This document shows positions 28,558 to 53,873 of a stretch of 64,000 nucleotides of DNA, piece by piece. The translations under genes were made by a program, and so were the position numbers. The DNA is from Mycobacterium heckeshornense. Lineage in GTDB: Bacteria; Actinomycetota; Actinomycetes; Mycobacteriales; Mycobacteriaceae. Below the pieces are notes generated by a model. The model ran no database searches and was not told the DNA's origin. It saw only the letters and a program-made list of their open reading frames with translations. Positions within the stretch are counted from its first letter, which is position 1, and every line of letters starts with the position of its first letter. Location: positions 4,154,001 to 4,218,000 of the forward strand of contig NZ_AP024237.1 in NCBI RefSeq assembly GCF_016592155.1. Direction: 5' to 3'.

Positions 28558-28587
28558 TTGACTACGCATACTACATCAGTATAGAGT
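28558..28587 (+). promoter_or_regulatory. Candidate sigma-A promoter at the left edge of the island
   Basis: TTGACT (28558-28563) is followed after 16 bases by TATAGA (28580-28585), overlapping a TAGAGT hexamer at 18-base spacing. It lies in the most AT-rich stretch of the left half and reads towards the membrane/oxidase cluster starting at 28859, which would leave a leader of about 265 bases. Confidence 0.5.
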
Positions 28588-28858
28588 GATAGCAAACATA
28601 TCTCGTCTAAATGGCATGATTAATTACGCGATTTTTGCGAATTTGGTAGGTCGATAGATCGGGCAGAAAGTTGCTTCGACTAGTTCCACCGGACGGCACG
28701 GCCGCTCCTGTGGCCATGTGCGGCGCTAAAGGCCAGTCAAGACGTGCGACGGGACGGTCGGGCGTCAAGAAACGGCTGGCAACAGATGGCCGGGGTGCCA
28801 TGAGCAGCGACAAGAGAGTCCGATGTCCACCGCAGGCCATCACTGAAGGGAAGTTGAC

Positions 28859-29653
28859 ATGACAACGAAGGCGGTCCTGGTGGAGTCGAATGAGAGCGAC
28901 GCGACGTCACGTGCGCGATTGGGCATCATCGCCGGCTGGGGAATCATGTTTTTCTTCGGCTTCGGCATGATCGGCGGCCAGTTCATACCGCCACCGGGAC
29001 CCTGGCCTGGGGAGGACCACATCACCGCGCAGTTCTACCGGGCGGATCTGGATTTCAAACGGTTGGCGGTGATCAGCCTCATCATCGGTGGGACAATGTT
29101 TATCCCGTTTGGCGCGGCGATCGCTGATCGGCTGCGTCGCCGTGGTGGCATCGGTATTCCATTGGCTCAATGCCAATTCGGCGCCGCGGTGGCGTCTGCA
29201 ACCTTGATGATGGTGTTTGGGCCGTTTCTGCTGACCGTGATGTTGCGCCCTGACCTACCCGATGTGATCGTCCGTTTCAGCAGTCTTGTGACGTGGATGG
29301 CGTGGGCGGGACTCTGGGAGCCAGGGGCGCTGCAGGCGTTTTCAGTGGCAGTCGTCGTCCTTGGTGATAAGTCGCTTTCGCCGGTTTTTCCCCGATGGGT
29401 GGGCTGGTACAGCCTGTTCATGGCGTTCGGCTCCATGATGGGCTGCCTCATTCCCTTTTTCACCGACAACGCCTTCGCGTGGGACGGAGCCATCGCATTC
29501 TGGGTGGCGGCTACGAATTTCTTCGTCTGGTTCGCGATAATGCTTGGCCAGTTTCACGTGACTTACCGGCGCGCGCGCCGGAGCGTATCGCCGGCGCCGC
29601 CTGTGGTAGGCGATGCGCCAACCACAGCCGACGTAGTGGAGGCGGCGCGGTGA
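28859..29653 (+). CDS. Multi-pass membrane protein of unknown function, linked to oxidase subunit III-like gene
   Basis: The 264-residue protein has about six hydrophobic segments (for example LGIIAGWGIMFFFGFGMIGG, then LAVISLIIGGTMFIPFGAAI) and a short charged C-terminal tail. A GAAGG Shine-Dalgarno lies before the ATG. Between helices 1 and 2 is a conserved-looking PPPGPWPGEDHITAQFY loop. I recognise no family; no haem or copper ligand set is evident. The stop overlaps the GTG of the next gene (GTGA), so it is coupled to the oxidase-subunit-like genes and probably belongs to the same membrane complex. Confidence 0.75.
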   Translation: MTTKAVLVESNESDATSRARLGIIAGWGIMFFFGFGMIGGQFIPPPGPWPGEDHITAQFYRADLDFKRLAVISLIIGGTMFIPFGAAIADRLRRRGGIGIPLAQCQFGAAVASATLMMVFGPFLLTVMLRPDLPDVIVRFSSLVTWMAWAGLWEPGALQAFSVAVVVLGDKSLSPVFPRWVGWYSLFMAFGSMMGCLIPFFTDNAFAWDGAIAFWVAATNFFVWFAIMLGQFHVTYRRARRSVSPAPPVVGDAPTTADVVEAAR

Positions 29654-30246
29654 TCTCCCTGGCCCCTCGGCCCGTCGAGGGCGTGCGGCAACCACCACAG
29701 GTGCCGGGAGAACCCGGGGTGTGGGTGTTCCTTGTGTGCGAAATGTCAGTGTTCACAGTACTTTTCGCAGTGATTCTGTACAACGGCAGCAAGAGCCCAC
29801 AAATATTTGCCAGCGGCCAGCAGATGTTGACCAAACCTCTCGGCTTGATCAATACCTGCATGCTAATCGCTGGCTCGGTGATGGTCGTGCTTGCCATCGG
29901 TGCGGCGCGGCGAGCCGAATACCACTCCGCCTCGCGGATGCTGCTGCTTGCGATGGGTTGCGGTGGAACGTTCGCCGCCATCAAAGCGATTGAGTACGGG
30001 ATGGTGATCGACCGCGGCATCTGGATTCACACCAATGTGTACTGGATGGTGTTCTTTGTTATTACGGGTGCTCATCTGCTGCACGTATTTGTTGGCGTCA
30101 CCGTTTTAGGTCTAACACGTCAGCGGGTCGCCGCCGGACTCGTCGGCCCGCGGGACAGCGAGTTGTTTGTATCCGCGACGTGTTACTGGCACCTCGTCGA
30201 TTTGCTGTGGCTCGTCTTGTTTCCGCTCTTCTACCTGGTGAACTGA
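29650..30246 (+). CDS. Heme-copper oxidase subunit III-like protein (CoxC/NorE type)
   Basis: A 198-residue membrane protein of the cytochrome c oxidase subunit III family. It begins VISLAPRPVEGVRQPPQVPG and has five or so helices with the family segments PGEPGVWVFLVCEMSVFTVLF, WMVFFVITGAHLLHVFVGV and SATCYWHLVDLLWLVLFPLFYLV. The short form resembles NorE of nitric-oxide reductase clusters or subunit III of caa3-type oxidases. The GTG start overlaps the upstream stop. No subunit I or II gene is present in the window, so its catalytic partner must be elsewhere or absent. Confidence 0.85.
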   Translation: MISLAPRPVEGVRQPPQVPGEPGVWVFLVCEMSVFTVLFAVILYNGSKSPQIFASGQQMLTKPLGLINTCMLIAGSVMVVLAIGAARRAEYHSASRMLLLAMGCGGTFAAIKAIEYGMVIDRGIWIHTNVYWMVFFVITGAHLLHVFVGVTVLGLTRQRVAAGLVGPRDSELFVSATCYWHLVDLLWLVLFPLFYLVN

Positions 30247-30247
30247 C

Positions 30248-30535
30248 GTGATAATCAACGAAAAACAAGCATCTGGGCTCACCGCGACAGCACTGCTGGT
30301 GGGCGGGGTGCTGATTGTCCTCACCGTCGGTTCGTATTGGCTGGGAACAGACCACTTGTTAGGTTTCTCCCGGTTGGCCATGGCGGTGGTCCTGCTGATC
30401 GCCTTCCTCAAGGTATGGCTTGTCACACACTTCTTTATGGACATGTGGCATTCACCGCGCTGGTTAAAAGCAATCGTCTACGGTTGGGTTTTCATCACCG
30501 GCACTCTGGTCTTGGGTCTTTACATCGCACGATGA
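30248..30535 (+). CDS. Cytochrome oxidase subunit IV-like small membrane protein (NorF type)
   Basis: A 95-residue protein with three membrane helices (SGLTATALLVGGVLIVLTVGS, LAMAVVLLIAFLKVWLVTHFF, WLKAIVYGWVFITGTLVLGLY). The FLKVWLVTHFFMDMWHSPRW stretch is typical of prokaryotic subunit IV / NorF proteins. It starts with GTG at 30248, one base after the subunit III-like stop, and the two should be made together. The 186 bases after it contain no gene. Confidence 0.8.
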   Translation: MIINEKQASGLTATALLVGGVLIVLTVGSYWLGTDHLLGFSRLAMAVVLLIAFLKVWLVTHFFMDMWHSPRWLKAIVYGWVFITGTLVLGLYIAR

Positions 30536-30721: not shown

Positions 30722-31633
30722 ATGATTGGCATTTCCACCCAGCTGCCGCCGTCGTATCCGGTGCCGCCGGCGGACCTGTCGGCTAGCCATGGGGCTAGCC
30801 TCGCCTTCACTCTGATTTGTGTCGCGTTTATGGCGATCGCTGTCGGATGGATCGCCCGCCTCGCAATGCGCGGGGAGACGCTAGGCATTTATTTCCTTCT
30901 GGGCGGGCTCTCGATGGGGGTTCTCGAGCCGTATTTGGACTACAACGGCTTGCTGTGGTTCGCCGGCGATAACGTGGCCATCGCCGTCAATCTTTTCGGG
31001 CGGCACATCCCGCTCTATGTGGTGTTGGGCTATGCATTCTTCTTCGGCCTGCAGTCCTACATCATCTATCGAGCAATCCTGCTGGGAAAGGGCGCCAGGT
31101 TCTTCCTTTGCGCCTACGCCGTCTCATGGGTCTTTGACCTGGGGTTGCAGATCACGGGCCGGGCGTTCGGACTCTACCGGTACTACGGGCATCAACCCTT
31201 CCTTATTGCCGGCGCTCCGGCATGGTGGTTCACCATCGACGCCACCCTGCAGCTGCTGGCCGGCTTTGTATTCTTCGGTCTGCGCGACAAGTTATCGGGT
31301 TGGGGGAAGCTGCTAGTGATTCCGTTATTGCCGATGCTCTATGCGGGTCTAAACGGCGCGACTGGATGGCCGGTCTTCACCGCGCTCAACAGCAACTACC
31401 GCGAAGACGTCAATGGCAATGCATCTACGGGGCTGATCTATTTGGGGGGGTTACTGACGATTGCCCTATGTGGGCTGCTGGTATGGCTTCTGGTGACCGA
31501 GATCGCAAAAGCCCAACAGCGAGCGGTAATTTCGATCCGGCCTGAGGTCACCCTGTCAGAGGTGTTCCTGGCGAAGGTCGGTGTGGGCATCAGCCCACCC
31601 GCGCACGGCATGTCGGTGGGGTCTGTTGGCTGA
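30722..31633 (+). CDS. Multi-pass membrane protein, possibly AveC-like
   Basis: A 303-residue protein with seven or eight predicted membrane helices. Conserved-looking polar residues lie at helix ends: GVLEPYLDYNGLLWF, FGRHIPLYVVLGYAFFFG, and the acidic/aromatic DLGLQITGRAFGLYRYYG. The layout recalls mycobacterial proteins named after AveC (a spirocyclase/dehydratase of avermectin synthesis), but I make this link from memory with low confidence. A GTAAGGAG Shine-Dalgarno precedes the ATG. The phytoene-desaturase-like gene follows 22 bases later, so they probably share a transcript and substrate class. Confidence 0.65.
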   Translation: MIGISTQLPPSYPVPPADLSASHGASLAFTLICVAFMAIAVGWIARLAMRGETLGIYFLLGGLSMGVLEPYLDYNGLLWFAGDNVAIAVNLFGRHIPLYVVLGYAFFFGLQSYIIYRAILLGKGARFFLCAYAVSWVFDLGLQITGRAFGLYRYYGHQPFLIAGAPAWWFTIDATLQLLAGFVFFGLRDKLSGWGKLLVIPLLPMLYAGLNGATGWPVFTALNSNYREDVNGNASTGLIYLGGLLTIALCGLLVWLLVTEIAKAQQRAVISIRPEVTLSEVFLAKVGVGISPPAHGMSVGSVG

Positions 31634-31655: not shown

Positions 31656-33233
31656 ATGGCGGAAATCATCCAGAACTACGACGTCATCGTTATCGGTGGG
31701 GGTCACAATGGCTTAGTCGCCGGCTGCTATCTCGCCCGCGCCGGCCAGTCCGTCCTGCTGGTGGAGCGGCACAATTGCTTGGGCGGAATGGCACTCAGCG
31801 CCCCATTGATCGACGCGGCTCCGCGACACATGGTCAATCCAGGCGCTTATGAAAACGTGTACCTGCGAGCCGGCGGGATCGTTGAAGACCTCGGCCTGCA
31901 GCGCTTCGGTTATCGGGAGGTCGACAGTGTGGGATGGGCGTGGCTCGGTGACGGCGGTGAATCTCTGCTTTTTCAAGCCGATGTCCACAAGACGGTGGCC
32001 GACATTGCGCGCTTCAGTAGGCGGGATGCTGCAGCCTACCGCGAACTGATCACCGTAGCGCTCAAAGCCGTTGAGCTGCAGGGGCGCTACGGTGGTGGAC
32101 CTCCCAACCGGCCTTCTCTCGGTACCATCGCAGTCGGCCTTCGAATGCTGGTGCAAGACCGCAAACTCCGCTCCACGCTCGCAGGATTGCTGACCGGGAC
32201 GGCGGCCGATGCGATTACGTCGACATTTGAATCCGACCAGCTGCGCGGTGCCTTCGCGTCGATCGCGACGATCCTGGGCGCTCCGACAGCCGAGGGAAGC
32301 GCACTGGCACTGCTGGCCACGTCATCGTTGCATGGAGCAGGAGCGGCGCGCCCCGTCGGCGGGATGGGCGGGCTGATCCTCGCACTGGAGAAATGCCTTC
32401 AACATTTCGGTGGCGTCGTGCGGACTGGTGTCGCGGCAGTGCACATCCAGCACGACGGCCGTCGCGCTACCGGTGTCACGCTCAGCGACGGGACAACGGT
32501 TACAGCGCGACATGCCGTCCTCACCGCGATTCCGCCGCAACGGATACCCGACCTGATCGGTGACGGTCTTCCTGCAACCCTTGCCGAGCGGCTTCGAGCA
32601 GCGCCCGCGAACGCGGGCGGGGTCGCGACCCTCACCGTGAACCTCGCATTGTCGGGGCAGCTGCGACTGCCGGCCCATCAGCCCGGGCGAAGCGATGTCG
32701 ACCTGCGCAAACCCGCCCTCTTCACCGGGTCATTCGACGGGGTGGTGAAGAGCTGCGAGCAGGCATCGCGGGGCGAACTTCCGACCGATGCCCCGTGGTG
32801 GTGCACCATATTTACCGCGATGGACTCCTCGCAGGCTCCACCAGGGCAGGATACTGCCCAGCTGTACAGCCCCGCACCGGTTATCGCGGCGGGGGGTTGG
32901 GACCTGCGTCGCAAGGAGGCAGCGCAGCTGCTCATCGATCAGGTCGGCCAAGTGATACCCGGCGTTCACGCGCTCGAGATCGGCCGGCTGGTGGAAACCC
33001 CGGAAGATTTGACACGAAGAACAACAACGGTCAACGGATGCCTCTACCACGTCGATCATTTGGTGACCCGCATGGGACCGTTGCGCCCCGCTCTCGGTGC
33101 CGCGGGGTACCGGATGCCGCTTCGGGATCTGTACTGCACGGGGGCGGGATTCCACCCCAGCGGTGGCGTTTCGGGTCTTCCCGGCAAGCATGCCGCGCTG
33201 GCAGTACTTGCGGACGTCGGTCGGCGTCGGTAG
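31656..33233 (+). CDS. Phytoene-desaturase-like FAD-dependent oxidoreductase
   Basis: A 525-residue flavoprotein of the CrtI/PYROXD2-like amine-oxidase superfamily. The dinucleotide motif VIVIGGGHNGLVAGCYLARAG is at residues 10-30 and the ERHNCLGGMA loop follows. The C-terminal FAD-binding end (GVSGLPGKHAALAVLADVGRR) is preserved, including GAGFHPSGGV. Family members desaturate or isomerise polyenes, but the PYROXD2-like branch is biochemically vague. Genetic linkage to the AveC-like membrane protein and, further on, a carotenoid oxygenase suggests an isoprenoid-type substrate. Confidence 0.82.
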   Translation: MAEIIQNYDVIVIGGGHNGLVAGCYLARAGQSVLLVERHNCLGGMALSAPLIDAAPRHMVNPGAYENVYLRAGGIVEDLGLQRFGYREVDSVGWAWLGDGGESLLFQADVHKTVADIARFSRRDAAAYRELITVALKAVELQGRYGGGPPNRPSLGTIAVGLRMLVQDRKLRSTLAGLLTGTAADAITSTFESDQLRGAFASIATILGAPTAEGSALALLATSSLHGAGAARPVGGMGGLILALEKCLQHFGGVVRTGVAAVHIQHDGRRATGVTLSDGTTVTARHAVLTAIPPQRIPDLIGDGLPATLAERLRAAPANAGGVATLTVNLALSGQLRLPAHQPGRSDVDLRKPALFTGSFDGVVKSCEQASRGELPTDAPWWCTIFTAMDSSQAPPGQDTAQLYSPAPVIAAGGWDLRRKEAAQLLIDQVGQVIPGVHALEIGRLVETPEDLTRRTTTVNGCLYHVDHLVTRMGPLRPALGAAGYRMPLRDLYCTGAGFHPSGGVSGLPGKHAALAVLADVGRRR

Positions 33234-33536: not shown

Positions 33537-34249
33537 ATGTTGAAGAAACAGCCACCGTCAGCCGGGCCGACGAGCCGCCGCTACAGCGCCGAGCAGAAGG
33601 CCGGCGCGGCCCGGATGGTCCGGACACTGCGCACGGAGTTGGGCACTGAGCACGGGGTGATCCAGGGGGTCGCCAGCTAGCTCGGATATGGGGTGGAATC
33701 GGTTCGCCAGTGGGTACGCCAAGCCGACATCGACGACGGCTACACCCCTGGAGTGCCGGCCTATCCGTCGGAGTGGGCGGCGACCTGGCGATCATCGTGG
33801 ACGTGTTCAGCCGCCGGATCCTGGGCTGAGCGCTGGCCACCCACTCGCGCACCGAACTCCCCTTGGCAGGGTTGCAAATGGCGATCTGGACTCGAGGCCA
33901 GCACCGGTTGGATCAGCTGGTGCACCGCAGCGACCGCGGAAGCCAATATCTTGCTATTCGTTACACCGAAACACTCGCTGCCGCAGGCGCATTAGAATCA
34001 GTCGGATCCCGGGGCGATAGCTACGACAATGCCCTGTGCGAGTCGACAATCGGGCAGATCAAAGCCGAGCTTATCCACCGACGCGGGCACTGGCGCACCG
34101 TTGATCAGCTCGAGTTCGCCCTCTTCGAGTACTTCGACTGGTGGAATCACCGCAGGCTCCGTGGCGAGCTCGCGATGAGCACACCGATCGAACACGAGCC
34201 TGCCTACTACGCTCAACAACCGGCGCTGACCGAGGTCGGCTCCCAATGA
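33537..34249 (+). mobile_element. IS3-family insertion sequence remnant (orfA and orfB fragments)
   Basis: OrfA starts at ATG 33537 (MLKKQPPSAGPTSRRYSAEQ) with the IS3 helix-turn-helix start, is broken by TAG at 33678-33680, and continues in frame (LGYGVESVRQWVRQADIDDG). It then jumps by deletion straight into the middle of orfB (IIVDVFSRRILG), which has a further TGA near 33830. The orfB tail is then clean to 34249 with SDRGSQY, the catalytic Glu in YDNALCESTIGQIKAEL and WWNHRRLRGEL. The first catalytic Asp is lost with the deletion, so the element is dead. Confidence 0.85.
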
Positions 34250-35080: not shown

Positions 35081-35212
35081 GTGAGTGACTCCCTTGCCCT
35101 TATGTTGGACGCCGAAGCAGTGCACAACGCATGCAGCGTGGTCACCGCGATCTCAGTCGGCTTTTCGCTTGCTCCGCCCGCTGAGGCCGAGGTGTTTCGA
35201 TTCCCATGGTGA
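35081..35212 (+). CDS. Possible 43-codon leader ORF overlapping yrbEA
   Basis: GTG 35081 has GGAG (35070-35073) about seven bases upstream and opens a 43-codon frame (VSDSLALMLDAEAVHNACSV..., ends VFRFPW) whose TGA overlaps the ATG of yrbEA at 35206. The layout would couple translation of a leader peptide to yrbEA, whose own ATG lacks a clear Shine-Dalgarno. No homology is recognised; it may equally be a chance frame. Confidence 0.3.
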   Translation: MSDSLALMLDAEAVHNACSVVTAISVGFSLAPPAEAEVFRFPW

Positions 35213-36147
35213 AGGTTGCGGGGACAGTGGATTCCGTTCGTGAACGGCGCAGCCAGAAGCCGGACAGCCAGGATCGGACGCTGAGGACCGGTCTCAACGG
35301 AAATGGTGTGCAGGACACGATGACCGCAACCCTTGTCAGACTGGGCGGTGCGGCGAAGCGGGCTCGCGACATGCCAGTGCAATCCACAGCCACGACCGGC
35401 CGCGGTCTGCGTCTCTGCGTTGACGTGGTGCGCTACGCGGTTACCGATACCATCACGTTGCGGTTGCCAGTGACCGAGTTGCTGTGGCAGGCATGGGTAT
35501 TGCTCAAAGTAACGGCGACACCCGCACTGTTGATGGCCATGCCGTTCGGCGCGATGGTGACCGTGGTTACGTCGGGATTGGTCGCTCAAGTGGGGGCGAC
35601 CGCGCTGCTTGGTGCCGCCAGTGGAGTGGGTGTTGTTCGGCAGGGCGCGCCCATCACCGCGGGGTTCTTGATGGGTGGTGCGGCGGCGTCGGCTATCGCT
35701 TCCGATTTTGGGGCGCGCGCAATGCGCGAGGAACTCGATGCGATGCGGGTACTCGGCGTCGACCCGGTCCGCCGTCTGATGGTGCCACGGTTTCTGGCGC
35801 TGATTCTGATAGCCCCGATGTTGTGCGCGATCATCATCGGCGCGGGAACCGGTGCCGCGTTCATTTTGTCGGTGGCAGTGAATGAAGTGGCGCCTGGAAG
35901 TTTCTGGCAGTCGTTCGGAACGTTCGCGAGAATGACCGACGTATGGTTCGCGGTGGGGAAGAGTGTCGTCTTTGCCGCGATCGTGGCGATAATTTCGTCG
36001 TTGCGAGGAATGGAGGCGAAGGGCGGCCCCCGCGGTGTCGCCGACGCCGTGAATGCCGCGGTCGTTGTCAATGTCGTCCTGATCGTTTTCGCGAATCTTG
36101 CGATCACGCAGATCCAGACGATGTTCTTCCCGGAGGCGATCGCCTAG
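35206..36147 (+). CDS. yrbEA: YrbE/MlaE-family ABC permease subunit A of the Mce transporter
   Basis: A 313-residue MlaE-type permease with about five or six helices. The family core is clear: TPALLMAMPFGAMVTVVTSG, GVVRQGAPITAGFLMGGAAAS, and AMREELDAMRVLGVDPVRRLMVPRFLA (the cytoplasmic coupling helix that contacts the MceG ATPase). Homology starts only near the internal ATG at 35320 (MTATLVRLGGAAKRARD, 275 residues), so either start is possible. It is first of eight tightly packed Mce genes and abuts yrbEB with a one-base overlap. Confidence 0.92.
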   Translation: MVKVAGTVDSVRERRSQKPDSQDRTLRTGLNGNGVQDTMTATLVRLGGAAKRARDMPVQSTATTGRGLRLCVDVVRYAVTDTITLRLPVTELLWQAWVLLKVTATPALLMAMPFGAMVTVVTSGLVAQVGATALLGAASGVGVVRQGAPITAGFLMGGAAASAIASDFGARAMREELDAMRVLGVDPVRRLMVPRFLALILIAPMLCAIIIGAGTGAAFILSVAVNEVAPGSFWQSFGTFARMTDVWFAVGKSVVFAAIVAIISSLRGMEAKGGPRGVADAVNAAVVVNVVLIVFANLAITQIQTMFFPEAIA

Positions 36148-43936: not shown

Positions 43937-43967
43937 ATCTGCGAATCGTCGGGAAAATGAGTCAGTT

Positions 43968-44708: not shown

Positions 44709-44721
44709 CAGGAAAACGACG

Positions 44722-45231: not shown

Positions 45232-45274
45232 TGCATACGCGGCGCGGCGTTCCGATTCTGCATGGAGGGTGCTC

Positions 45275-45772
45275 ATGAATCGACTCCACACCACGGGGGC
45301 TTCGGTAATCGTGGGCGTTGCGGCGATCGTGTCGGCCCCTGTCGCTCACGCCGAAGACACGGTGACCTATGAGGTCTTTTCGAGCTTCGTGGACCAGGTG
45401 GATGGGATCGAATACCGCGATCTATCGGGAAAGCACTTAATACCCGCGGTGCCGCTGCCCTGGCAGATCACGGTTCCCGTGGCCAACGTGTTCAGCCCGG
45501 AAGACGCGGGCGCCGAGGTACGCGCCGACTGGCGGCCAAATTTCAGGACGGCGGCGACCGTCGGCCGAGTTCTGCAGGGTCAATTGGTGACGGTGCGCAT
45601 TTCTTTCCGCGGCAAGGTCATCTGCGAAAACACTATCGACGTTGGTAATGCGACATGCTACGGCAGCGCGCCGCACTCGCCGGACACCGACTCGACGTAT
45701 GACCGGAGTCCGTTATTTCCTGAACCGGCATCGGGATTGGTGCCAGGAGTGGATCCGGGCCGTGTCAATTAG
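45275..45772 (+). CDS. Small exported protein of unknown function
   Basis: A 165-residue protein from ATG 45275; GGAGGG at 45264-45269 decides the start. The signal peptide NRLHTTGASVIVGVAAIVSA ends at AHA with mature EDTVTYEV. The mature part is beta-rich (VTYEVFSSFVDQVDGIEYRD, VPLPWQITVPV, ADWRP, VRISFRGKVICENT) and resembles the immunoglobulin-like domain of MmpS and related mycobacterial secreted proteins, with two Cys (ICENTIDVGNATCYG). The role is unknown. Confidence 0.75.
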   Translation: MNRLHTTGASVIVGVAAIVSAPVAHAEDTVTYEVFSSFVDQVDGIEYRDLSGKHLIPAVPLPWQITVPVANVFSPEDAGAEVRADWRPNFRTAATVGRVLQGQLVTVRISFRGKVICENTIDVGNATCYGSAPHSPDTDSTYDRSPLFPEPASGLVPGVDPGRVN

Positions 45773-45794
45773 AAACGAGGACGCGAGGTTGGCA

Positions 45795-46412
45795 ATGGTC
45801 AGTATGCGCGCGGGGGTCTGCCGGTGGTTGGCGACGACTGCGTGTCTCATCGGGTTGACGGTCGGTGCCGCGCCCGCCGGGCAAGCACAGCCGGACGACG
45901 ACGTCGACAATGTCGCTGGCGCGCCGGTATCCGCTGATCCCCTTCCCCCTTCCGCGGGCGATCTGCGTGGGAACAAGCCAGAGGCTGACTTGCCGATACC
46001 TCCTAAGTCCACTCCATTTCCCGACGCCGGCCCCATTCTGCAGTCCTACCAGCGACAGCAGCCCAGTGAATTCTTCACCGCGAGCAATGAAGGCGTATGG
46101 TTCTCCACCCCTTTGGGGCTGAACTGCGGCATCTGGGATCGAGGCGGCTTTGGCTGCGCGGGGAGTATTCCGGGTGCACCGCAGGGAGACACCCACATCG
46201 GTTGGGTTACCGGGAACATCGTGACCCGCTATGACCCCCTGCTGAGTTTTCAGTTCCCCCCTGGGCGGGCGGAGCGAATGCTGCCGCCACGCAGCTACGT
46301 GGAATACAACGGAACGAGGTGCGCCACCATGACGGATAACAGCACCTACTGTGCGCATGGCCCTTACCGGTTCTTCATCACGCCCACCAAAACGTTTCTG
46401 AGCCCGCCGTGA
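45795..46412 (+). CDS. Exported protein of unknown function
   Basis: A 205-residue protein from ATG 45795. Signal sequence AGVCRWLATTACLIGLTVGA ends near GQA, followed by an acidic, Pro-rich linker. The C-terminal domain has four Cys in regular spacing (LNCGIWD, FGCAGS, TRCATM, TYCAHG) and many aromatic residues, a pattern of a small disulfide-bonded fold seen in other mycobacterial secreted proteins. The next frame overlaps its end (GTGA). No function is known. Confidence 0.75.
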   Translation: MVSMRAGVCRWLATTACLIGLTVGAAPAGQAQPDDDVDNVAGAPVSADPLPPSAGDLRGNKPEADLPIPPKSTPFPDAGPILQSYQRQQPSEFFTASNEGVWFSTPLGLNCGIWDRGGFGCAGSIPGAPQGDTHIGWVTGNIVTRYDPLLSFQFPPGRAERMLPPRSYVEYNGTRCATMTDNSTYCAHGPYRFFITPTKTFLSPP

Positions 46413-47191
46413 TGGCTCGCGACCGCCGTGAACGTCAGCGACGAACTCACGCGATGCCTAGGAAGCACGCCGCACTAAACGGCGAAGTAGCTCATCACAG
46501 CAGTGGGCCGCGTCATACTGCGCACAGGCAAGCCGACACGTCGCCGATTACGAAAGCATCTCGTAATGCACCGGCGTTGCGGCGGCGGGTTTCGCTTACC
46601 TTGCGGCCGGATCGCTCTCCGAAGCTCGCGGGTGGGGAGATTGCCCCTGACGCACCAGCGTGGCAAATAATGATCCGCGGAGCGCAAACTCCTGCGTTTA
46701 GTGCCGCCGTCACGTTTGGCTTGGTTCTCACCTGGCTCGGTACAGAGGCGCCTCCCCCTCTTCACAATGCACACAACCCGTTCCGTCGTGCCCAGCGGGA
46801 GACGCTGCGTCCTGCCGGGCGGGAAACGCTGCGCATTCCAGCGCCCACCGCGCCGGCCCTCGACAAGGCAAAAGCCAACCCTGGTGCCGGACCGACGACG
46901 AGCGATCGTTCACCGATCAAAGCGGACATCAACCCGAAAGTCTCCGCCACGCTCGAACAGGTATTGGACGAACTCGATCAACAGGCGCGGCCACCACAGC
47001 CCCGCCGAAGTCCAAACCGCTACCGGACTCGGCAAGGGCGCAGCCACCTAACGCTCCGTTATCCAAGACGGCCCCGACAGACCCGGCTCGCGTGCCAGCG
47101 ATCCAGCATCCCAATGGCGCGCGACCGGGTCCTCCACCCGCCTGAGGACCATGCACGGCTGATGGCGCAACACAACAGGAGAGAGCGTTGA
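46409..47191 (+). CDS. Putative membrane-anchored Pro-rich protein, possible frameshift in 3' part
   Basis: A 260-codon frame starting at GTG 46409 within the previous stop. The N-terminal half is basic; a single hydrophobic stretch lies at about residues 95-112 (AFSAAVTFGLVLTWLG); then a Lys/Pro/Ala-rich part reaches VSATLEQVLDELDQQARP. After about 46990 the frame becomes Arg-rich and unlikely, while the next frame gives a natural Pro/Ala/Lys tail ending at a TGA near 47150 (ending GARPGPPPA). This suggests a one-base shift. No homology is recognised and coding status is uncertain. Confidence 0.5.
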   Translation: MMARDRRERQRRTHAMPRKHAALNGEVAHHSSGPRHTAHRQADTSPITKASRNAPALRRRVSLTLRPDRSPKLAGGEIAPDAPAWQIMIRGAQTPAFSAAVTFGLVLTWLGTEAPPPLHNAHNPFRRAQRETLRPAGRETLRIPAPTAPALDKAKANPGAGPTTSDRSPIKADINPKVSATLEQVLDELDQQARPPQPRRSPNRYRTRQGRSHLTLRYPRRPRQTRLACQRSSIPMARDRVLHPPEDHARLMAQHNRRER

Positions 47192-47496
47192 CCACACTCA
47201 AGATGCTGACGACGGGACTGCTGCTGGTTGGCCCGGCATTGCTGTTCAGTGCGCCGGTAGCGCCCGCTGACCCACTAACCCCACCTACTCCTGCCGAGAT
47301 GCAGTTCCTCGATCAAGCGCGCCGGCTGCTCCCGCGCGCTCCCGATCCGATGGTCGCATTCAACAGTGATGGAGAGCTGCTGGATCAGGGCAGGCAGGCG
47401 TGCTTCATGCGTGATAACGGGAGGGTCGGATACGAATCGAACATGCTGCCTCCCGTCATCACCCAACTCGCGCTCGTATATCTGTGCCCGCGGTGA
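47188..47496 (+). CDS. DUF732-type small secreted protein
   Basis: A 102-residue protein starting at TTG 47188 with AGGAGAG upstream. Signal peptide TLKMLTTGLLLVGPALLFSA ends at APA before DPLTPP. The mature part (EMQFLDQARRLL, ELLDQGRQACFM, LALVYLCPR) follows the DUF732 layout of one helical domain closed by two Cys. DUF732 proteins are abundant mycobacterial secreted proteins of unknown role. Confidence 0.8.
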   Translation: MTTLKMLTTGLLLVGPALLFSAPVAPADPLTPPTPAEMQFLDQARRLLPRAPDPMVAFNSDGELLDQGRQACFMRDNGRVGYESNMLPPVITQLALVYLCPR

Positions 47497-47548
47497 ACCG
47501 GTCCATGTTCGCCAAATGACAGCACCTGACGCGAGAGGAGAAACCGAG

Positions 47549-47983
47549 ATGCTAAATCCCGCAAGACATTTAGGCTGCGCCATAATTGGAACGATGTTTG
47601 CAATGCTCCTTGCGACGGCGCCAGCAGCGCAAGCAGATGAGGCAAGCTTCCTCGCCGGCGCTCGTGCTCTCGGGTTACCGCAATCCGACGACGTTCTGAT
47701 CAGAACGGCGCTGTCCGCATGTCGCTTTCTTCAGAATGGCGAGCTCGAGAGATTCGCTGGCGGGCCGGGCCGCCGGGATGCATACGGGTACCCCAACTTA
47801 CGTAGGCTCCCGCAAGACGTAGAGCAGCACATCGCACGGTACCTCAACCTCGAACCCGCGTCCATCCCACCGCCGGGCCGAGACCCCCAGCCGGGGGAAG
47901 GCAAGGCGCACGAACTCCTCGTGCTGTCCGTCAACGAGTACTGCCCACAACTGGCCTACCGAGTCTCCGACCCGCCCGCCTGA
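47549..47983 (+). CDS. DUF732-type small secreted protein
   Basis: A 144-residue protein from ATG 47549 with GAGAGGAG upstream. Signal NPARHLGCAIIGTMFAMLLA ends AQA before DEASFL. The mature part has the DUF732 pattern ASFLAGARALGL ... RTALSACRFL ... VNEYCPQL with two Cys. It is 30-40 residues longer than the neighbour at 47188 because of an inserted Pro-rich loop (EPASIPPPGRDPQPGEG). The two DUF732 genes look like a diverged tandem pair. Confidence 0.8.
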   Translation: MLNPARHLGCAIIGTMFAMLLATAPAAQADEASFLAGARALGLPQSDDVLIRTALSACRFLQNGELERFAGGPGRRDAYGYPNLRRLPQDVEQHIARYLNLEPASIPPPGRDPQPGEGKAHELLVLSVNEYCPQLAYRVSDPPA

Positions 47984-48012
47984 GCAACCACTACCACGCC
48001 GAAGGATTCGCG

Positions 48013-48585
48013 ATGCCCGACCATGTCCAATGCGCTGTCGTCAGACGGTGGTCCGCAGCGCTTTTCGCCGTCGGAGCGATCGTCTCAATGGCGGTCTCGA
48101 TTCCGGTGCCAGCCGCCGCCGACCCATCCCCGTCAATTGATTCGGACGGCGACGGCCTTAGCGATCAGTTCGAGCGGGACGTGTCGAAAACCGATCCGTT
48201 CAACAAGGACTCCGACGGTGATGGGTTGGACGACGGGCTCGAAGTGCTCGTCCTCAAGTCGAACCCGAACTCTAAGAACTCCGACCTCGACAGCTTGTCG
48301 GACTACGACGAGGTACACAAATACCACACTGACCCGACTAAAGCTGACACCGACGGCGACGGACTCCGCGACGAGATCGAAGTCCTCCCTTGGTTCGAAA
48401 ACACCAATCCGCTCGATCCAGACACCGATCACGATGGTCTGTCGGACGGCGACGAAGTCCAACTTTATGGCACCGACCCGAAAAACCCTGACACCGATGG
48501 CGATGGGGTGTCCGACAGCCAAGAAGTCAACGTTGACAAGACCGACCCCCTAATCCCCGGCGCAACGGCTCTTGTAACTCATTGA
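48013..48585 (+). CDS. Secreted thrombospondin type-3 repeat calcium-binding protein
   Basis: A 190-residue protein from ATG 48013. Signal RWSAALFAVGAIVSMAVSIP ends AAA before DPSPS. The mature part is almost entirely thrombospondin type-3-like repeats: DSDGDGLSDQFE, DSDGDGLDDGLE, NSDLDSLSDYDE, DTDGDGLRDEIE, DTDHDGLSDGDE and DTDGDGVSDSQE, six Asp-rich calcium loops with about 20-25-residue period. Each has the DxDxDGxxDxxE geometry except the third (NSDLDS). Such domains bind Ca2+ and serve in envelope structure or adhesion. It ends the run of exported proteins after the Mce operon. Confidence 0.9.
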   Translation: MPDHVQCAVVRRWSAALFAVGAIVSMAVSIPVPAAADPSPSIDSDGDGLSDQFERDVSKTDPFNKDSDGDGLDDGLEVLVLKSNPNSKNSDLDSLSDYDEVHKYHTDPTKADTDGDGLRDEIEVLPWFENTNPLDPDTDHDGLSDGDEVQLYGTDPKNPDTDGDGVSDSQEVNVDKTDPLIPGATALVTH

Positions 48586-48800: not shown

Positions 48801-49868
48801 TTACTCGTCGGGTGTTTTGAGTCGTTTCATGTAGGGGCTAAAGCGGATCACGTCGACCATGACGATGGTGTCGGTGGCCAAGACGCCTTCAATGGTCTGA
48901 ATTTGGGTGGCGATCAACTCGATCGCTTGCTGGGGGTCGGCCGCGGTTAAGGTGAGGTTGAGGTCGGCGCTACCGACGCAGACTGCCATGAATACCAGCT
49001 CAGGCATCGTGGCGAGTTCTTTCTTAATAGAGCTGAGACTCGCGCGGTTCGCCCGTAGTGAGACGCACGCGATGACGCCGGCCAACCCCAAAGCCACTGG
49101 CTCGACCATCGCCACTACCCGGACCAGTCCCGCCTGGGTAAGCCGGGCCAGTCGAGTGCGGATGGTTCCTTCCGACACATCGTGGGAGCGGGCGATTTTA
49201 CGGCTGGATTGTCGCCCATCGTCGATCAAGTCCTGCAGGATCGCGATGTCGAGGTCATCTAACTCGACCTTGGGGGCCGGCAGCCTGATAGGCGGGGCCG
49301 CGCGGGCCAAAAACAGTCGGCGCCCGTTTTCGGTGACCCAGGTTTCGGTTGCCAGATCGATGCTCATTTCGGAGATTCCGCGGATGGCGGGCAGGTCGTC
49401 GTTGGTCAGTTGGTGCAGCTCGACGCGATCCTTGACCAAGAAGTAGGCGATGACGTCGTGGCTTCCTAAACACACCGCCACCGCCTCGCACTGTTCAATC
49501 TGGCTCACATCCGTCGCGACGTCGCGCGGCGAGCGGGCTTGGGTCTTGATACGTGCGATGACAAACCAGTCGAAGCCGGCTTCTTCCCAGTCGATGAGCG
49601 CAGTAAAAATGATCGCGCCGCTAGCCACCAGCTTGCGCAGCCTAATGCTCACCGCCGATTCGCTGATCCCGGCGTGGGCGGCCAAGACGCGGTTGCTCAT
49701 CTTGCCGTCCTGTAGCAGATATTCGATTAAAACGCGGTCGATGTCATCCAGGCTTACCTCGGGCAGCACCATGTTGTCTCGGGGCAAGAGCTTGGCGCCC
49801 GCAGAGGCTCCCTGGGTAGCCGGCGGCCGCAACCGCACCCGGTCAGCTCCTGAATCGCGTTTGGTCAT
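48801..49868 (-). CDS. Tandem-domain Lrp/AsnC-family transcriptional regulator
   Basis: A roughly 355-residue protein containing two complete Lrp/AsnC units in one chain. Unit 1 has a winged HTH (DDIDRVLIEYLLQDGKMSNR, AGISESAVSIRLRKL) and a RAM-like domain (FDWFVIARIKTQARSP). Unit 2 repeats this (LDDLDIAILQDLIDDGRQSS, HDVSEGTIRTRLARL; VIACVSLRANRAS). A single chain therefore equals a pre-formed dimer. An ATG at 49880 is an alternative start. It is divergent from the carotenoid oxygenase operon across a 350-bp AT-rich region and is the obvious candidate regulator. Confidence 0.88.
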   Translation of the reverse strand: MTKRDSGADRVRLRPPATQGASAGAKLLPRDNMVLPEVSLDDIDRVLIEYLLQDGKMSNRVLAAHAGISESAVSIRLRKLVASGAIIFTALIDWEEAGFDWFVIARIKTQARSPRDVATDVSQIEQCEAVAVCLGSHDVIAYFLVKDRVELHQLTNDDLPAIRGISEMSIDLATETWVTENGRRLFLARAAPPIRLPAPKVELDDLDIAILQDLIDDGRQSSRKIARSHDVSEGTIRTRLARLTQAGLVRVVAMVEPVALGLAGVIACVSLRANRASLSSIKKELATMPELVFMAVCVGSADLNLTLTAADPQQAIELIATQIQTIEGVLATDTIVMVDVIRFSPYMKRLKTPDE

Positions 49869-49880
49869 TTCACAGCCCAT

Positions 49881-50140
49881 CGCAGTGGAAATCCACCGAA
49901 ATAGTCTATCGGCACTGCGCGGCCTTCAACGCCTACGTCGCCCGCGGGCTGGCCTGCCCCCCATCGCCGACCTTCCCGCTGCCTGAGCGTGTAGCTCCGC
50001 GCGTGCGCGCAGATTGGCGCCGTCCAGACCCCGTGGCCGAGACACTGCTCGCAGGCATAGCCGTCATGGAACATCGAGGAAAAGTCTGCAACACTTAGCT
50101 GCTATTAGTCGTAATTCATTTTTGCGTCGATAACTCTTCA
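49881..50140. other. Regulatory region between Lrp gene and catabolic operon
   Basis: No gene is supported in these bases. The GC content falls sharply towards 50095-50160. The 190 bases nearest the regulator gene are GC-rich without obvious signal; the AT-rich part carries the promoter and palindromes listed at 50141-50185. Confidence 0.5.
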
Positions 50141-50185
50141 TTCGAATACGAATATTTGACAAGCGGAGGCGGGGCCGCTTAGAGT
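50141..50185 (+). promoter_or_regulatory. Sigma-A-like promoter with embedded operator palindromes for the carotenoid oxygenase operon
   Basis: TTGACA (50156-50161) and TAGAGT (50180-50185) are separated by 18 bases. The spacer is itself a palindrome: AAGCGG-8-CCGCTT at 50161-50180. Directly upstream is TTCGAATACGAA (50141-50152), an inverted repeat of TTCG/CGAA in AT-rich DNA as favoured by Lrp-type regulators. A transcript would begin near 50192 and read the oxygenase start at 50223 after a roughly 30-base leader. Confidence 0.65.
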
Positions 50186-50222: not shown

Positions 50223-51704
50223 ATGGTCACCGCGATTCCCGACGACATTCGTCTGTTCGGTCCGCTAAAGCCGATGCGCTTCGAGGCCCGCGTGGAAGAT
50301 TGCGTGGTCGCGGAGGGGCAGATTCCCCGTGAGTTGCACGGCGGGTTCTACCGGATCGGCCCCACGTGGAAACGCCCCACCCGGCAAGGCTTCAATGGCT
50401 TCGCGGCCACCGACGCGATGGTGCAAGGATTGGTCTTCCACGACGGCAAGGCCGACTTCACCAACAAGTGGGTCAGGACCCCTAAATACCTGCTAGAGGA
50501 CAAGCACGGCGTCGGGTTATTTGAGTGGACCGACGGTGTGTACACCGACTGGCGCGGTTATGGGTTGGGCCGGGTGATTACCAATCAATACACCGAAGGC
50601 GTGCCCGGCGGTAGCCCGATCGTCAACGTGTTCCCGTTCGCCGGGGAAATCCTGGGATCCGGCGAGCAAGGAATTCCGCCAATCGCAATTGACCCGATCA
50701 CCCTTGACACCCGCGGCATCGTGCCGTGGTCTACCAAGCTCTCCCCTGGGATGACCCCTCCAGCATGCTATGGCGATAACGCGTTCACCGCTCATCCCAA
50801 GTGGGACACCGAAACCGGCATCCTGTACGGCTGGGCATACCGCGATACCGAACCCTACGTGACGCTGCATTGGGTCCACCCGGACGGCCACGTGGAATCC
50901 CGCGACATCGACGATGCTCCTTACGCCCAAAACGCACACGACATGTGGCTGACCGAAAACTATGTCGTGCTGCCATTCCAGCCGTTCATTGTGGGTCAGG
51001 ACCGTATCGATCGGGGGCTGTCAGTGTTCGGCTGGGATCCGAGCCTGCCCACCATGCTGGCGCTTATTCCACGTAACGACATCAATGCTCCTATTAAATG
51101 GATCACCGCCGATTTCAACGAAGAATATATTATGCACACGATGTCGGCTAACCACGTCGGCGACATGCTGATTCTCGATGGGCCGATCTTTGACCGACCA
51201 CCCTTTCCCTTCGAAGACCAAGTCGAATTCGGCGTGGATTTCGTGCCGTTCGGGTCCGGTGTAACTGGACGTTGGACTATCGATTTAACCAGCGGGAAGA
51301 TCAAGAGTGAACGCCTCGACGACCGCGCGGTCGAATTCCCCAAAGTCGATGAGCGCTTCTATGGCAAGAACTACCAATGGGGCTTCCTCACCGCTGGCGA
51401 GAACTTGTGGTCGCTCGACACCGTAATGCGGCGAAATGTACACACCGGCGCCGAGGAAAGTTTTACGATCGATACCACAGAGCAATCGGCGGTGTTGTTT
51501 GAACCCACATTTGCTCCTCGCTCCGTGGACTCGGCAGAAGGTGACGGCTACCTTATTGTACCAATCTCACATTTTATGGAAAATACCTCTGAATATCAGA
51601 TTTTCGATACAGAAGATTTCGCTAGCGGGCCCATTGCGCGCATTGAACTTCCGTTCCAGATTGGATGGACACCGCACGGTCACTACATGAATTTTGACCA
51701 CTAA
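50223..51704 (+). CDS. Carotenoid cleavage oxygenase family protein (RPE65/lignostilbene dioxygenase type)
   Basis: A 493-residue non-haem iron oxygenase. GGAGG lies nine bases before ATG 50223. The four Fe-binding His of the seven-bladed propeller appear in order in the contexts FTAHPKWD, NAHDMWL, YIMHTMS and PHGHYM, and the N-terminal motif LHGGFYRIGPTW is that of the family. Members cleave C=C bonds of carotenoids, apocarotenoids or stilbenes; the substrate is not set by sequence. It leads an operon with the SCP2 protein (33 bases on) and an FAD monooxygenase. Confidence 0.9.
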   Translation: MVTAIPDDIRLFGPLKPMRFEARVEDCVVAEGQIPRELHGGFYRIGPTWKRPTRQGFNGFAATDAMVQGLVFHDGKADFTNKWVRTPKYLLEDKHGVGLFEWTDGVYTDWRGYGLGRVITNQYTEGVPGGSPIVNVFPFAGEILGSGEQGIPPIAIDPITLDTRGIVPWSTKLSPGMTPPACYGDNAFTAHPKWDTETGILYGWAYRDTEPYVTLHWVHPDGHVESRDIDDAPYAQNAHDMWLTENYVVLPFQPFIVGQDRIDRGLSVFGWDPSLPTMLALIPRNDINAPIKWITADFNEEYIMHTMSANHVGDMLILDGPIFDRPPFPFEDQVEFGVDFVPFGSGVTGRWTIDLTSGKIKSERLDDRAVEFPKVDERFYGKNYQWGFLTAGENLWSLDTVMRRNVHTGAEESFTIDTTEQSAVLFEPTFAPRSVDSAEGDGYLIVPISHFMENTSEYQIFDTEDFASGPIARIELPFQIGWTPHGHYMNFDH

Positions 51705-51737: not shown

Positions 51738-52154
51738 TTGGCATTCTTCAGTTCCGCCGAACAGCTGTATGACGTGTTCACCGGATTCATGCGAGACATG
51801 GCGGCCGACCCACAGCTGGGACCCAAGTTCGTCCAATCCAAGACGGTTTTTCGAATCAACTACATAGATCCGGACGCATCGATCCTCGTCGATTGCACCC
51901 AAGATCCGATCCAGATCACGGAGGGTCTTTCCGATGTCAAGCCCGACGTTCAGCTAACCATGAAGGCCGACGACGGGCACTTGTTCTGGATGGGCAAACT
52001 CAAAATCACTACCGCGATCACCAAACGCAAAATCAAAGTTGCCGGGCAGGTGGCGAAGATGATGAACCTTTTGCCAGCGCTTGACCCTGCGTTCGCCAGG
52101 TACCGCGCTTACCTTGCGGAGAAGGGCTACGGCGAACTGCTGGTGGTTTCGTGA
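51738..52154 (+). CDS. SCP2 sterol-carrier-domain protein
   Basis: A 138-residue protein starting at TTG 51738; AAAGGAG lies about nine bases upstream. The SCP2 signature follows: ASILVDCTQDPIQITEG, PDVQLTMKADDGHLFWMGKL and the MGKLKITTAITKRKIKVAGQ strand-helix. Such domains bind and shuttle hydrophobic molecules such as sterols or fatty acyl-CoA. It sits between the oxygenase and the monooxygenase, overlapping the latter by four bases, so it probably delivers substrate between the two. Confidence 0.88.
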   Translation: MAFFSSAEQLYDVFTGFMRDMAADPQLGPKFVQSKTVFRINYIDPDASILVDCTQDPIQITEGLSDVKPDVQLTMKADDGHLFWMGKLKITTAITKRKIKVAGQVAKMMNLLPALDPAFARYRAYLAEKGYGELLVVS

Positions 52155-53674
52155 AAAGACGACGGACCCGCATCGCGATTGTCGGGTGTGGATTCGGCGG
52201 CCTCGCCGCTGCAATCGAACTCAAGCGATCGGGATTTGATAATTTCACGATTTTCGAGAGGGCGGATTCGGTCGGCGGCGTGTGGCGCGAAAACACCTAT
52301 CCTGGCGCTGAATGTGATGTGCCCTCGCCGATTTATTCCTTCTCTTTCGCTCTTAAGCCCGATTGGTCGAGGCTTTTCGGCAAGCAAGAGGAAATCCACC
52401 GGTATCTCGACGAAGTCGCACACGAGTTCGGGATTATTGACCACATCCGGTTTAATACCGAAGTCACATCGGCGGTGTTTGACGAGTCGACTGGACACTG
52501 GCTGGTGACCACCAATACGGGAGAACAGGCGCAGGTGGAGGCAATCATCATGGCCACCGGTCAGCTCAGTCGGCCACGCCTGCCCGACGTGGAGGGCATC
52601 GATACCTTCGCTGGCGATTCTTTCCACTCCGCGCAATGGCGTCACGACGTCGATCTGACCGACAAGAAGGTGGTGGTGGTAGGTAGCGGTGCTAGCGCGA
52701 TCCAGATCGTGCCAGCAATCGCGGACATCACCGCTGATTTGACCGTGGTGCAGCGGTCGCCCAACTGGGTGATGTGGAAAAGCCGGCGCAGGCCCGGCAG
52801 ATTGCAGACGACGCTGATGAAGCGTTCCGGACTGCTGCGCACCCTGCATCACGTCGTGCTGTTTCTCGCCTACGAGTCACGCTATCCACTCGTCACCCGG
52901 CCCGCGGAGCCGATCCGCAAGTTCTACCAATGGTGGTTTATCCGAAACATCAAGCGCCACATGAGCGATCCCGAGGAGATTGCTGCGGCGACACCCCACT
53001 ATCGACTGCTCTGCAACCGGCTGCTGTTGTCTAACGACTGGTATCCAACGCTCGGCCGCGAGGACGTCCACTTGGTCGGCTCGGCGGTGCAACGGGTAAC
53101 ACCGACGGGTGTCGTCACTGCGGACGGCCGCAGCATCGACGCCGAAGTGGTGATCTGGTGTACCGGGTTTCGAGCAAGCGAATTCCTCAGCCCCATCAAA
53201 GTCATCGGTCGTGACGGCATCGACCTACATGAGCAATGGCGCCACGGGGCCGAGGCCTACCTCGGTATCAGTGCACCCAACTTTCCCAACATGTTCATGC
53301 TTTTCGGGCCCAACACCAACAGCATCACCAACACGATCGTGTTCATGCTCGAGCGCCAAGCCCGATACATCCGCCAAGCCTTGGAGTACAAGGATTCCCA
53401 TGACGTCAAGTGGCTCGATGTCAGCGCTGACACTTATCAAAAGTTTCATGTGTGGCTCCAAAAACAGCTGGACAGAACCGTTTTCACCGATAACTGCCCC
53501 GGTTGGTACACCAACGAGGAAGGAAAGGTCACCGCGATGTGGCCGGCGTCGCACCTGACGTATGCCCGTATGACGGCGAAGTTTCGTCCTGACCGGTACA
53601 CCATTGTCGCAAACAAACGGTTGGCCCCGACCACGGCGTCACTGCACAACAACCAATGCGTGGTGACGGACTAA
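52151..53674 (+). CDS. FAD-dependent monooxygenase of the FMO/Baeyer-Villiger type
   Basis: A 507-residue flavoprotein starting at GTG 52151. The FAD-binding motif IVGCGFGGLAAAIEL is at residues 9-23, the NADPH-binding motif VVGSGASAIQIVPAI near 178-192, and between them FAGDSFHSAQWRHD resembles the FxGxxxHxxxW Baeyer-Villiger fingerprint. CTGFRASEF is the second conserved loop. Such enzymes insert oxygen next to ketones, producing esters or lactones. Coupled translation with the SCP2 gene places it after C=C cleavage, which would give a ketone or aldehyde for it to act on. Confidence 0.88.
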   Translation: MKRRRTRIAIVGCGFGGLAAAIELKRSGFDNFTIFERADSVGGVWRENTYPGAECDVPSPIYSFSFALKPDWSRLFGKQEEIHRYLDEVAHEFGIIDHIRFNTEVTSAVFDESTGHWLVTTNTGEQAQVEAIIMATGQLSRPRLPDVEGIDTFAGDSFHSAQWRHDVDLTDKKVVVVGSGASAIQIVPAIADITADLTVVQRSPNWVMWKSRRRPGRLQTTLMKRSGLLRTLHHVVLFLAYESRYPLVTRPAEPIRKFYQWWFIRNIKRHMSDPEEIAAATPHYRLLCNRLLLSNDWYPTLGREDVHLVGSAVQRVTPTGVVTADGRSIDAEVVIWCTGFRASEFLSPIKVIGRDGIDLHEQWRHGAEAYLGISAPNFPNMFMLFGPNTNSITNTIVFMLERQARYIRQALEYKDSHDVKWLDVSADTYQKFHVWLQKQLDRTVFTDNCPGWYTNEEGKVTAMWPASHLTYARMTAKFRPDRYTIVANKRLAPTTASLHNNQCVVTD

Positions 53675-53763
53675 GGCGTGGGTGGCATTGAGCATTCGCG
53701 AACTGCTCGACCGGACGACCCGTAAACCCGCGGACCTACCGACCCTGCACGGTAAAACACCAC

Positions 53764-53795
53764 GCGCAAGCACCCGCCGCAGCGGGTGCTTGCGC
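53764..53795. terminator. Perfect 14-bp hairpin, bidirectional terminator candidate
   Basis: GCGCAAGCACCCGC and its exact complement GCGGGTGCTTGCGC are separated by the four-base loop CGCA. It lies between the convergent ends of the monooxygenase gene and the tautomerase-like gene. No U-run follows on either strand, as is common in mycobacteria. Confidence 0.8.
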
Positions 53796-53873
53796 AGGCC
53801 GCCGTGTTGAGCGCTGACACCATGGGAACAATAATCCTGCCTGGATTAATACCAGGGCAGATCGACAGCCTGA

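Follow-up and report, generated by a model that had tools for sequence, protein, structure and literature searches.

An Mce island with a carotenoid-oxygenase-fold operon in Mycobacterium heckeshornense as a candidate system for import and oxidative cleavage of a hydrophobic compound

Among the Mce systems, Mce1 imports fatty acids and Mce4 imports cholesterol, and many others have no known cargo. The present analysis concerns an island of low GC content that combines an Mce operon with genes for oxidative enzymes. It occupies 28.6-53.8 kb of a stretch of 64,000 nucleotides from M. heckeshornense (G000:C1:4154001-4218000, in a single-contig genome of 4.96 Mb), which is referred to as the window. 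Besides the Mce genes, the island carries an operon for a carotenoid-oxygenase-fold enzyme (CCO), an SCP2 lipid-carrier-like protein and an FMO/Baeyer-Villiger-type monooxygenase (FMO). The nearest functional precedent is found in rubber-degrading Nocardia, where lcp, yrbE and mce genes form clusters and the import of oligo-isoprenoids by Mce was proposed, according to PMC9070631; the proposal is repeated in PMC8538451. In both cases an Mce operon lies near an oxygenase, which in Nocardia cleaves isoprenoid C=C bonds. Unlike the Nocardia clusters, which as far as described there encode the rubber oxygenase Lcp, the window contains a CCO-fold enzyme, SCP2, FMO, a CrtO-like protein and an Lrp-type regulator.

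The nearest described island is MmGI-1 of M. massiliense, for which PMC4263727 lists an Mce operon, two 'beta-carotene ketolase' genes and genes of beta-oxidation. Five open reading frames behind its mce genes (214, 200, 147, 112 and 186 aa) resemble the tail of the operon in the window, a likeness based on size. The sole gene called carotenoid oxygenase in that account (MMASJCM_2869) lies outside MmGI-1, unlike the situation in the window, and the words 'SCP' and 'monooxygenase' are absent from the main text, whereas the window holds both SCP2 and FMO. The operon types mce5-8 are defined in PMC1810536. The sequence-only reading of the window knew of no Mce locus with this enzyme set, and in our literature searches no paper describing an Mce operon together with CCO, SCP2 and FMO genes was found either.

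As is generally known for Mce4 and the sterol-degradation genes, Mce import seems to be coupled here to neighbouring catabolic genes. Unlike at the Mce4 locus, general domain scans of the island proteins revealed no gene for steroid-ring degradation. Of the six other yrbE sets in the same genome, the five that were measured are only 32-36% identical to the one in the window.

Altogether, it is assumed with a probability of roughly 0.6 that the island is one catabolic unit, in which a hydrophobic, perhaps isoprenoid, substrate would be imported by the Mce system and cleaved oxidatively inside the cell. Judged from the comparisons given below, the functional grouping of the Mce and the oxygenase operons is strongly supported and catabolic import is likely, while an isoprenoid as the substrate is a guess.

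The CCO gene (50223..51704, plus strand) encodes an RPE65-domain protein (PF03055, 263 bits). Its start was placed at 50223 rather than 50190, since the start MVTAIPDDI and the preceding AGGAGG are conserved in three relatives. The TTGACA-18-TAGAGT promoter (50156-50185) and the motif TTTGCGTCG ahead of it (together 50121..50185, plus strand) were both found conserved in G186, G264 and G291. Like lignostilbene dioxygenases and apocarotenoid oxygenases, the CCO has the domain and the four iron-binding histidines of the superfamily: the four columns aligned with lignostilbene dioxygenase are His in all 64 relatives compared. In a literal motif scan all four His strings were present in 7 of the 11 CCOs with 60% identity or more, and the alignment showed that the other four keep His as well. 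Neither specific family name could be assigned, because the best NCBIfam model, lignostilbene dioxygenase, gave 243 bits against an equivalog cut-off of 800, and the model for 8'-apo-carotenoid 13,14-cleaving dioxygenase gave 153 bits against 675. Among solved structures, a lignostilbene dioxygenase scored best with 204 bits, compared to 71-73 bits for apocarotenoid oxygenase. A second CCO, 57% identical, is encoded in the same genome (G000:C1:2990366-2991856) and adjoins an acyl-CoA dehydrogenase gene.

Downstream follow the genes for SCP2 (51738..52154, plus strand; PF02036, 36 bits) and FMO (52151..53674, plus strand; PF00743, 84 bits), the latter scoring 233 bits against phenylacetone monooxygenase. 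The FMO carries the fingerprint FAGDSFHSAQWR, to be compared with FxGxxxHxxxW(P/D), the fingerprint of type I Baeyer-Villiger enzymes. FxGxxxHxxxW was present in 12 of 13 FMO orthologs and missing from the incomplete copy of G275; the residue behind the W is R in the window and D, N, P or R in the other orthologs.

The Mce operon, on the plus strand, shows the order of an actinobacterial Mce importer: behind the genes for two MlaE-type permeases, it encodes six proteins with an MlaD domain. These are yrbEA (35206..36147; PF02405, 178 bits), yrbEB (36144..36992; 170 bits) and mceA-mceF (36999..43176), the latter as six genes (36999-38168, 38165-39166, 39154-40134, 40104-41240, 41240-42235 and 42232-43176). 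The MlaD domain of mceA scored 24.9 bits in the protein scan, just under the Pfam cut-off of 25.1, and passed with 27.8 bits in a six-frame search. By family membership the operon is a predicted lipid importer of the envelope. The whole genome contains 42 MlaD domains, corresponding to seven mce sets of six.

For the distribution of the genes, 396 genomes of the genus were searched with FMO, CCO and the tandem Lrp regulator, and the best 3-5 candidates per genome were scored. The FMO was found at 69-100% identity in 13 genomes and the CCO at 79-100% in 8, each of which is also among the 13. Three more CCO copies lie at 60-63% (G264, G324, G335) and 44 at about 51-59%; the tandem Lrp regulator was found at 47-100% in 16 genomes. 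Neighbourhoods were fetched from 17 genomes, and 29 window genes were mapped onto them. Eleven of the 13 genomes with FMO (the window's, G018, G039, G081, G154, G186, G264, G290, G291, G324 and G335) carry the Mce type of the window on the FMO contig, at a distance of 5-24 kb. The remaining two represent contig breaks. In G392 the contig ends past the tail-like genes x5-x5-x3, and G275 is split into pieces of 4.3 and 4.5 kb, one with FMO, the other with Lrp, mem303, x4 and a portion of x1. The CCO of G290 lies together with SCP2 on a separate contig of 7.7 kb. The gene order is strongly reshuffled among the genomes, while the set is kept together. This is the pattern expected of selection for a common function, and a set that recurs in shuffled form in other mycobacteria probably represents a genuine pathway for a greasy compound.

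As controls, regions no longer than 20 kb were fetched for the 44 lower-identity CCOs, giving 41 in total. An acyl-CoA dehydrogenase was a neighbour in 31 of these regions, any Mce gene in 8 and the Mce type of the window in 2. Within 8 kb, a distance spanned by most control regions, this Mce type accompanied 6 of the 11 CCOs with 60% identity or more compared to 2 of the 44 others (Fisher p 0.0004, a guide only, since the genomes are related and relatedness was left uncorrected). In this count G186, with a distance of 13.4 kb, and G290 and G392, with contig ends, were scored as misses. At 12 kb the numbers are 8 of 11 and 2 of 44, which flatters the comparison because the control regions extend for no more than about 9-10 kb on either side.

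A tree of YrbEA and YrbEB with 42 rows was calculated, in which an operon was called linked when a cluster-type gene for FMO, CCO or a CrtO-like protein lay within 25 kb; the second, different Mce set of G264 was removed from this label before scoring. 'Unlinked' was mostly called from stretches of 11-20 kb, and among those genomes only G018 has the FMO, on another contig. The operon of the window and 32 others form one clade (33 operons, support 100/100), outside of which the five other includable sets of the genome fall. The linked operons occupy four places in the tree, namely the window with G186, six of the G324-G154 group, G039 with G081, and G290. Four changes, at least three of them forced, are needed to explain this distribution. 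Either the link to the Mce class is ancestral and was often lost, or operons of this class were recruited more than once; either history implies that the class is suitable, and neither implies that it is exclusive.

The combination also occurs outside the genus. On plasmid pRZP2 of Rhodococcus sp. ZPP, one stretch of 45 kb encodes relatives of CCO (56%), SCP2 (46%), FMO (37%) and yrbEA (61%), mceA-F at 32-42%, a ligase (32%), an aldehyde dehydrogenase (38%), a P450, acyl-CoA dehydrogenases and other beta-oxidation genes and an ABC ATPase. A weak relative of mem264 (20%) is present too, and COX3-like (33%) and COX4-like (39%) genes lie directly before yrbEA and mce. In Nocardia terrae, about 20 kb hold CCO (58%), SCP2 (44%), COX3 (40%), an FMO-like protein (34%), ligase (39%) and yrbEA (53%). 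Two Nocardioides records combine CCO with FMO-, CrtI- and mem264-like genes, with no Mce match in the stretch examined. A gammaproteobacterial CCO, from Spongiibacter thalassae, is 59-60% identical; besides a weak Lrp match, no cluster gene was present in the stretch examined.

Further genes recur in the related clusters and are absent from the window. Their domains were determined on one representative of each family, with membership set at 35% identity or more. They include a FadD-like AMP-binding ligase (220 bits), an aldehyde dehydrogenase (404 bits), an MPAB_Lcp_cat oxygenase (110 bits) and an AveC-like membrane protein (109 bits; family F28, distinct from mem303), as well as an SDR, an acyl-CoA dehydrogenase, an SRPBCC protein and an APH/EcKL-type kinase. 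On the fetched contigs of the 13 FMO genomes, ligase and acyl-CoA dehydrogenase were found in 10 each, aldehyde dehydrogenase and MPAB_Lcp in 9 each, and SDR in 8. Since ligase, aldehyde dehydrogenase, SDR and acyl-CoA dehydrogenase recur in this way, a catabolic direction can be assumed. FMO and AMP-binding ligase are moreover fused in one open frame of 1133 aa in G264 (G264:C209) and of 1123 aa in G291 (G291:C6), in both cases downstream of CCO and SCP2. G275 has a copy of this fusion cut by the contig end (925 aa), and in G186 the ligase follows the FMO (60% to the reference ligase).

For the direction of import, the order of the reactions and the regulation, we infer the following course. 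The Mce complex, consisting of the YrbEAB permease pair, MceA-F and the tail proteins, would carry the hydrophobic compound through the envelope, presumably powered by a shared Mce ATPase encoded elsewhere in the genome. Inside the cell, SCP2 could hold the compound, the CrtO/CrtI-like flavoenzyme may oxidise or desaturate it, and cleavage of a C=C bond by the iron-dependent CCO would yield carbonyl products, with the FMO inserting oxygen beside a ketone. In the related clusters, acid products might then be passed to beta-oxidation by aldehyde dehydrogenase, acyl-CoA ligase and acyl-CoA dehydrogenase; for these steps the window would depend on unlinked genes. The CCO operon would be under the control of the divergent tandem regulator of the Lrp type. 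A wider version of this scheme, a dedicated actinobacterial pathway in which an Mce class of its own imports a polyene or isoprenoid from the environment for intracellular C=C cleavage by CCO, Baeyer-Villiger oxidation and acyl-CoA formation, resembling the sterol regulon and serving carotenoid- or polyisoprenoid-derived carbon, can be put forward only tentatively. In either form, the recurrent, shuffled neighbourhood ties one Mce class to a few oxidative enzymes. The range of possible cargo is thereby narrowed to hydrophobic compounds in which a C=C bond can be oxidised, and a testable route is offered. With an isoprenoid as the substrate, the system would illustrate how mycobacteria in the environment live on the remains of terpenoids, and a second lipid class would join the sterols.

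The sequence-only reading had proposed the import and degradation of a polyene. The linkage in the FMO genomes, its occurrence on separate branches of the Mce tree and the recurrence of catabolic partners speak for a grouping of the two operons and for a catabolic direction, whereas the carotenoid, apocarotenoid or polyisoprenoid nature of the substrate was not borne out, as the CCO is closer to lignostilbene dioxygenase in both the structural comparison and the NCBIfam scores. The same unit could therefore act on an aromatic alkene such as a stilbenoid, lignan or arylpropene, with a CCO of the lignostilbene-dioxygenase type. Of two positions in LsdA, Tyr101 and the phenol-recognising Lys134, the Tyr is retained, while the position of Lys134 is occupied by Gly in the window and by Gly, Ser or Ala, never Lys, in all 64 aligned relatives, so that a phenolic stilbene is not favoured. 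The Mce type does lie near genes for ring-hydroxylating dioxygenases on plasmids of M. avium and M. branderi. Among the identified recurrent families of the FMO clusters, several further families being unidentified, no ring-cleavage gene was present, and MpaB/Lcp-type, CrtO-like and AveC-like proteins recur. We thus regard an aromatic substrate as rather unlikely. A role of the genes in making or remodelling an endogenous isoprenoid, such as a pigment or a lipid of the envelope, which Mce would export or recycle, appears highly improbable. It would fit the biosynthetic family names of the CrtO/CrtI-like and AveC-like proteins and the label 'Carotenoid biosynthesis protein' given by its source to one mem303 homolog. 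Against it stand the degradative families of the recurrent partners, the lack of a phytoene-synthase domain in the 30 proteins of the window that were scanned, and the general knowledge that Mce systems with known cargo import.

Several observations weigh against the assumption of one catabolic unit. The yrbEA type (E 1e-75) is commoner than the oxygenases. In 251 genomes of the family, which represent 31 genera, it occurs in 41, spread over 11 genera, and the CCO (E 1e-150) only in the window's own genome (1 of 251). With such a wide distribution and the other enzyme sets beside it, including those on the two plasmids, this Mce type may be a general importer. An expected co-occurrence of the Mce type with the oxygenase operon across mycobacteria thus held in one direction: the FMO and the nearest CCO clade are nearly always found with this Mce type, which itself is distributed much more widely than the CCO. 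The yrbEA of the window is 91% identical to that of the linked G186, then 82% to the unlinked G018:C6 and only 73-74% to the linked operons of G264 and G291, which means that the partner was exchanged or the linkage repeatedly lost. In G264, a second Mce set of another type (31%) is located about 21-25 kb from FMO and CCO. On a CCO tree of 65 rows, made by a quick method, 8 changes of the Mce label are required, 7 of them forced; the link is therefore neither universal nor restricted to one CCO clade. The conserved motif ahead of the CCO promoter was not found upstream of yrbEA, and a motif comparison gave no operator common to the two promoters. Finally, a cluster-type acyl-CoA ligase is missing from the window, with the best match (43%) elsewhere in its genome, and of 15 partner families sought in the 64 kb, none was found but for a weak FadB match. 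Seven MPAB_Lcp domains were detected in the genome, none of them at the island. Lacking these recurrent partner genes, the island of the window is best read, by gene content, as a reduced version of the cluster.

A generalist Mce operon lying by chance beside a mobile oxygenase cluster without a common substrate would suit the observations that many genomes have the Mce type without CCO, the nearest Mce relatives of the window beyond G186 are unlinked, and the place of the island relative to the left flank differs between the window genome and G186. A chance neighbourhood is, however, difficult to bring in line with a linkage that persists through reshuffling in 11 of 13 FMO genomes, with the three or more changes required on the Mce tree and with the excess within 8 kb over the controls. 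CCO, SCP2, FMO and COX3-COX4-like genes are associated with this Mce type in Rhodococcus too. A mere coincidence is thus considered improbable, and the import and cleavage of a hydrophobic substrate by one unit remains the preferred reading.

The regulator gene (48801..49880, minus strand) is divergent from CCO and encodes two Lrp/AsnC modules per chain (PF13412, PF13404 and PF01037, two stretches each). Tandem Lrp/AsnC proteins, often as paired genes, adjoin yrbEA, CCO or mem303 in different genomes, and the family is a possible marker of such catabolic islands. In G098, G176, G261 and G333, tandem Lrp regulators accompany another catabolic set, comprising a P450-like protein, a small ferredoxin-like protein, an amidohydrolase and a GMC oxidoreductase; the Mce type of the window is present in three of these four contig sets.

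The left part of the island, on the plus strand, opens with a module of mem264, COX3 and COX4. The membrane protein mem264 (28859..29653) had no Pfam or NCBIfam match in the domain scans; in 8 of 18 contig sets, including the window, its family occurs together with genes like COX3 and COX4. The cytochrome c oxidase subunit III-like COX3 (29644..30246; PF00510, 55 bits) reached 95 bits with NF050119, under the cut-off of 190. Its frame 29395-30246 is over-long, and the start was placed at about 29644-29719. COX4 (30248..30535; 95 aa) is cytochrome oxidase subunit IV-like, with 39% identity over 75 aa to a 'cytochrome C oxidase subunit IV family' protein of Rhodococcus sp. ZPP. It is followed by mem303 (30722..31633), a multi-helix membrane protein with invariant E69, D73, N84, R94 and D139, as read from 51 aligned members of the 101 proteins found. 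The structure predicted for mem303 (mean pLDDT 89.6) gave no confident match in the PDB, and the nearest named relative is M. xenopi 3993 (87%). An assignment as AveC-like was rejected, as PF17198 is absent from the 13 families matched by any of the 51 members at E 1. Some clusters hold several related mem303 copies. The FAD oxidoreductase (31656..33233) belongs to the CrtO/CrtI superfamily. Its 235 bits with the NCBIfam CrtO model, compared to an equivalog cut-off of 1000, identify a relative of the beta-carotene ketolase and not CrtO itself, and the 103 bits with crtI_fam lie under the cut-off of 238.

The GC content of the island is 0.601 (28559-53800) compared to 0.675 on the left (1-27856) and 0.650 on the right (54500-64000). 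Every part named in the sequence-only reading was recovered by Pfam and NCBIfam domain scans and by site and hairpin searches, including the elements said to bound the island, i.e. the promoter given above, the insertion-sequence (IS) fossils and the hairpin. Inside the island, a truncated integrase-core (rve) fragment (33863..34249, plus strand; PF13333/PF13683 over cut-off) represents an IS remnant, and at its right edge lies an IS256-family transposase (55527..56873, minus strand; NF033543, 264 bits, cut-off 150). The terminator-like hairpin with a 15-bp stem (53763..53796, minus strand) is situated between the convergent genes for FMO and a tautomerase-like protein. As a class, terminator-like sites were not enriched over shuffles (6 compared to 6.3), and promoter-like sites numbered 4 compared to 2.5. 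In G186 the left flank (24-27.85 kb of the window) is found at 4.10 Mb and the island at 1.07-1.10 Mb, and the sole long match of the right flank is the IS256 element. Since the identity to G186 is similar for island and flank, the island looks old and relocated rather than newly arrived.

The Mce operon continues on the plus strand into x1, x2, x3, x4 and x5 (43196..46412), the conserved tail of this Mce type. The x1 gene follows mceF in 14 of the 20 operons fetched, and the remaining six stretches stop short of the tail; a small gene behind the related operon in M. branderi is annotated as MmpS family. The tail is followed by x6 and x7 (46409..48585, plus strand), a DUF732-like and a TSP3-repeat protein. 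The bacterial TSP3-repeat protein (48013-48585), located at the end of the Mce operon, was seen in the window and G186 only.

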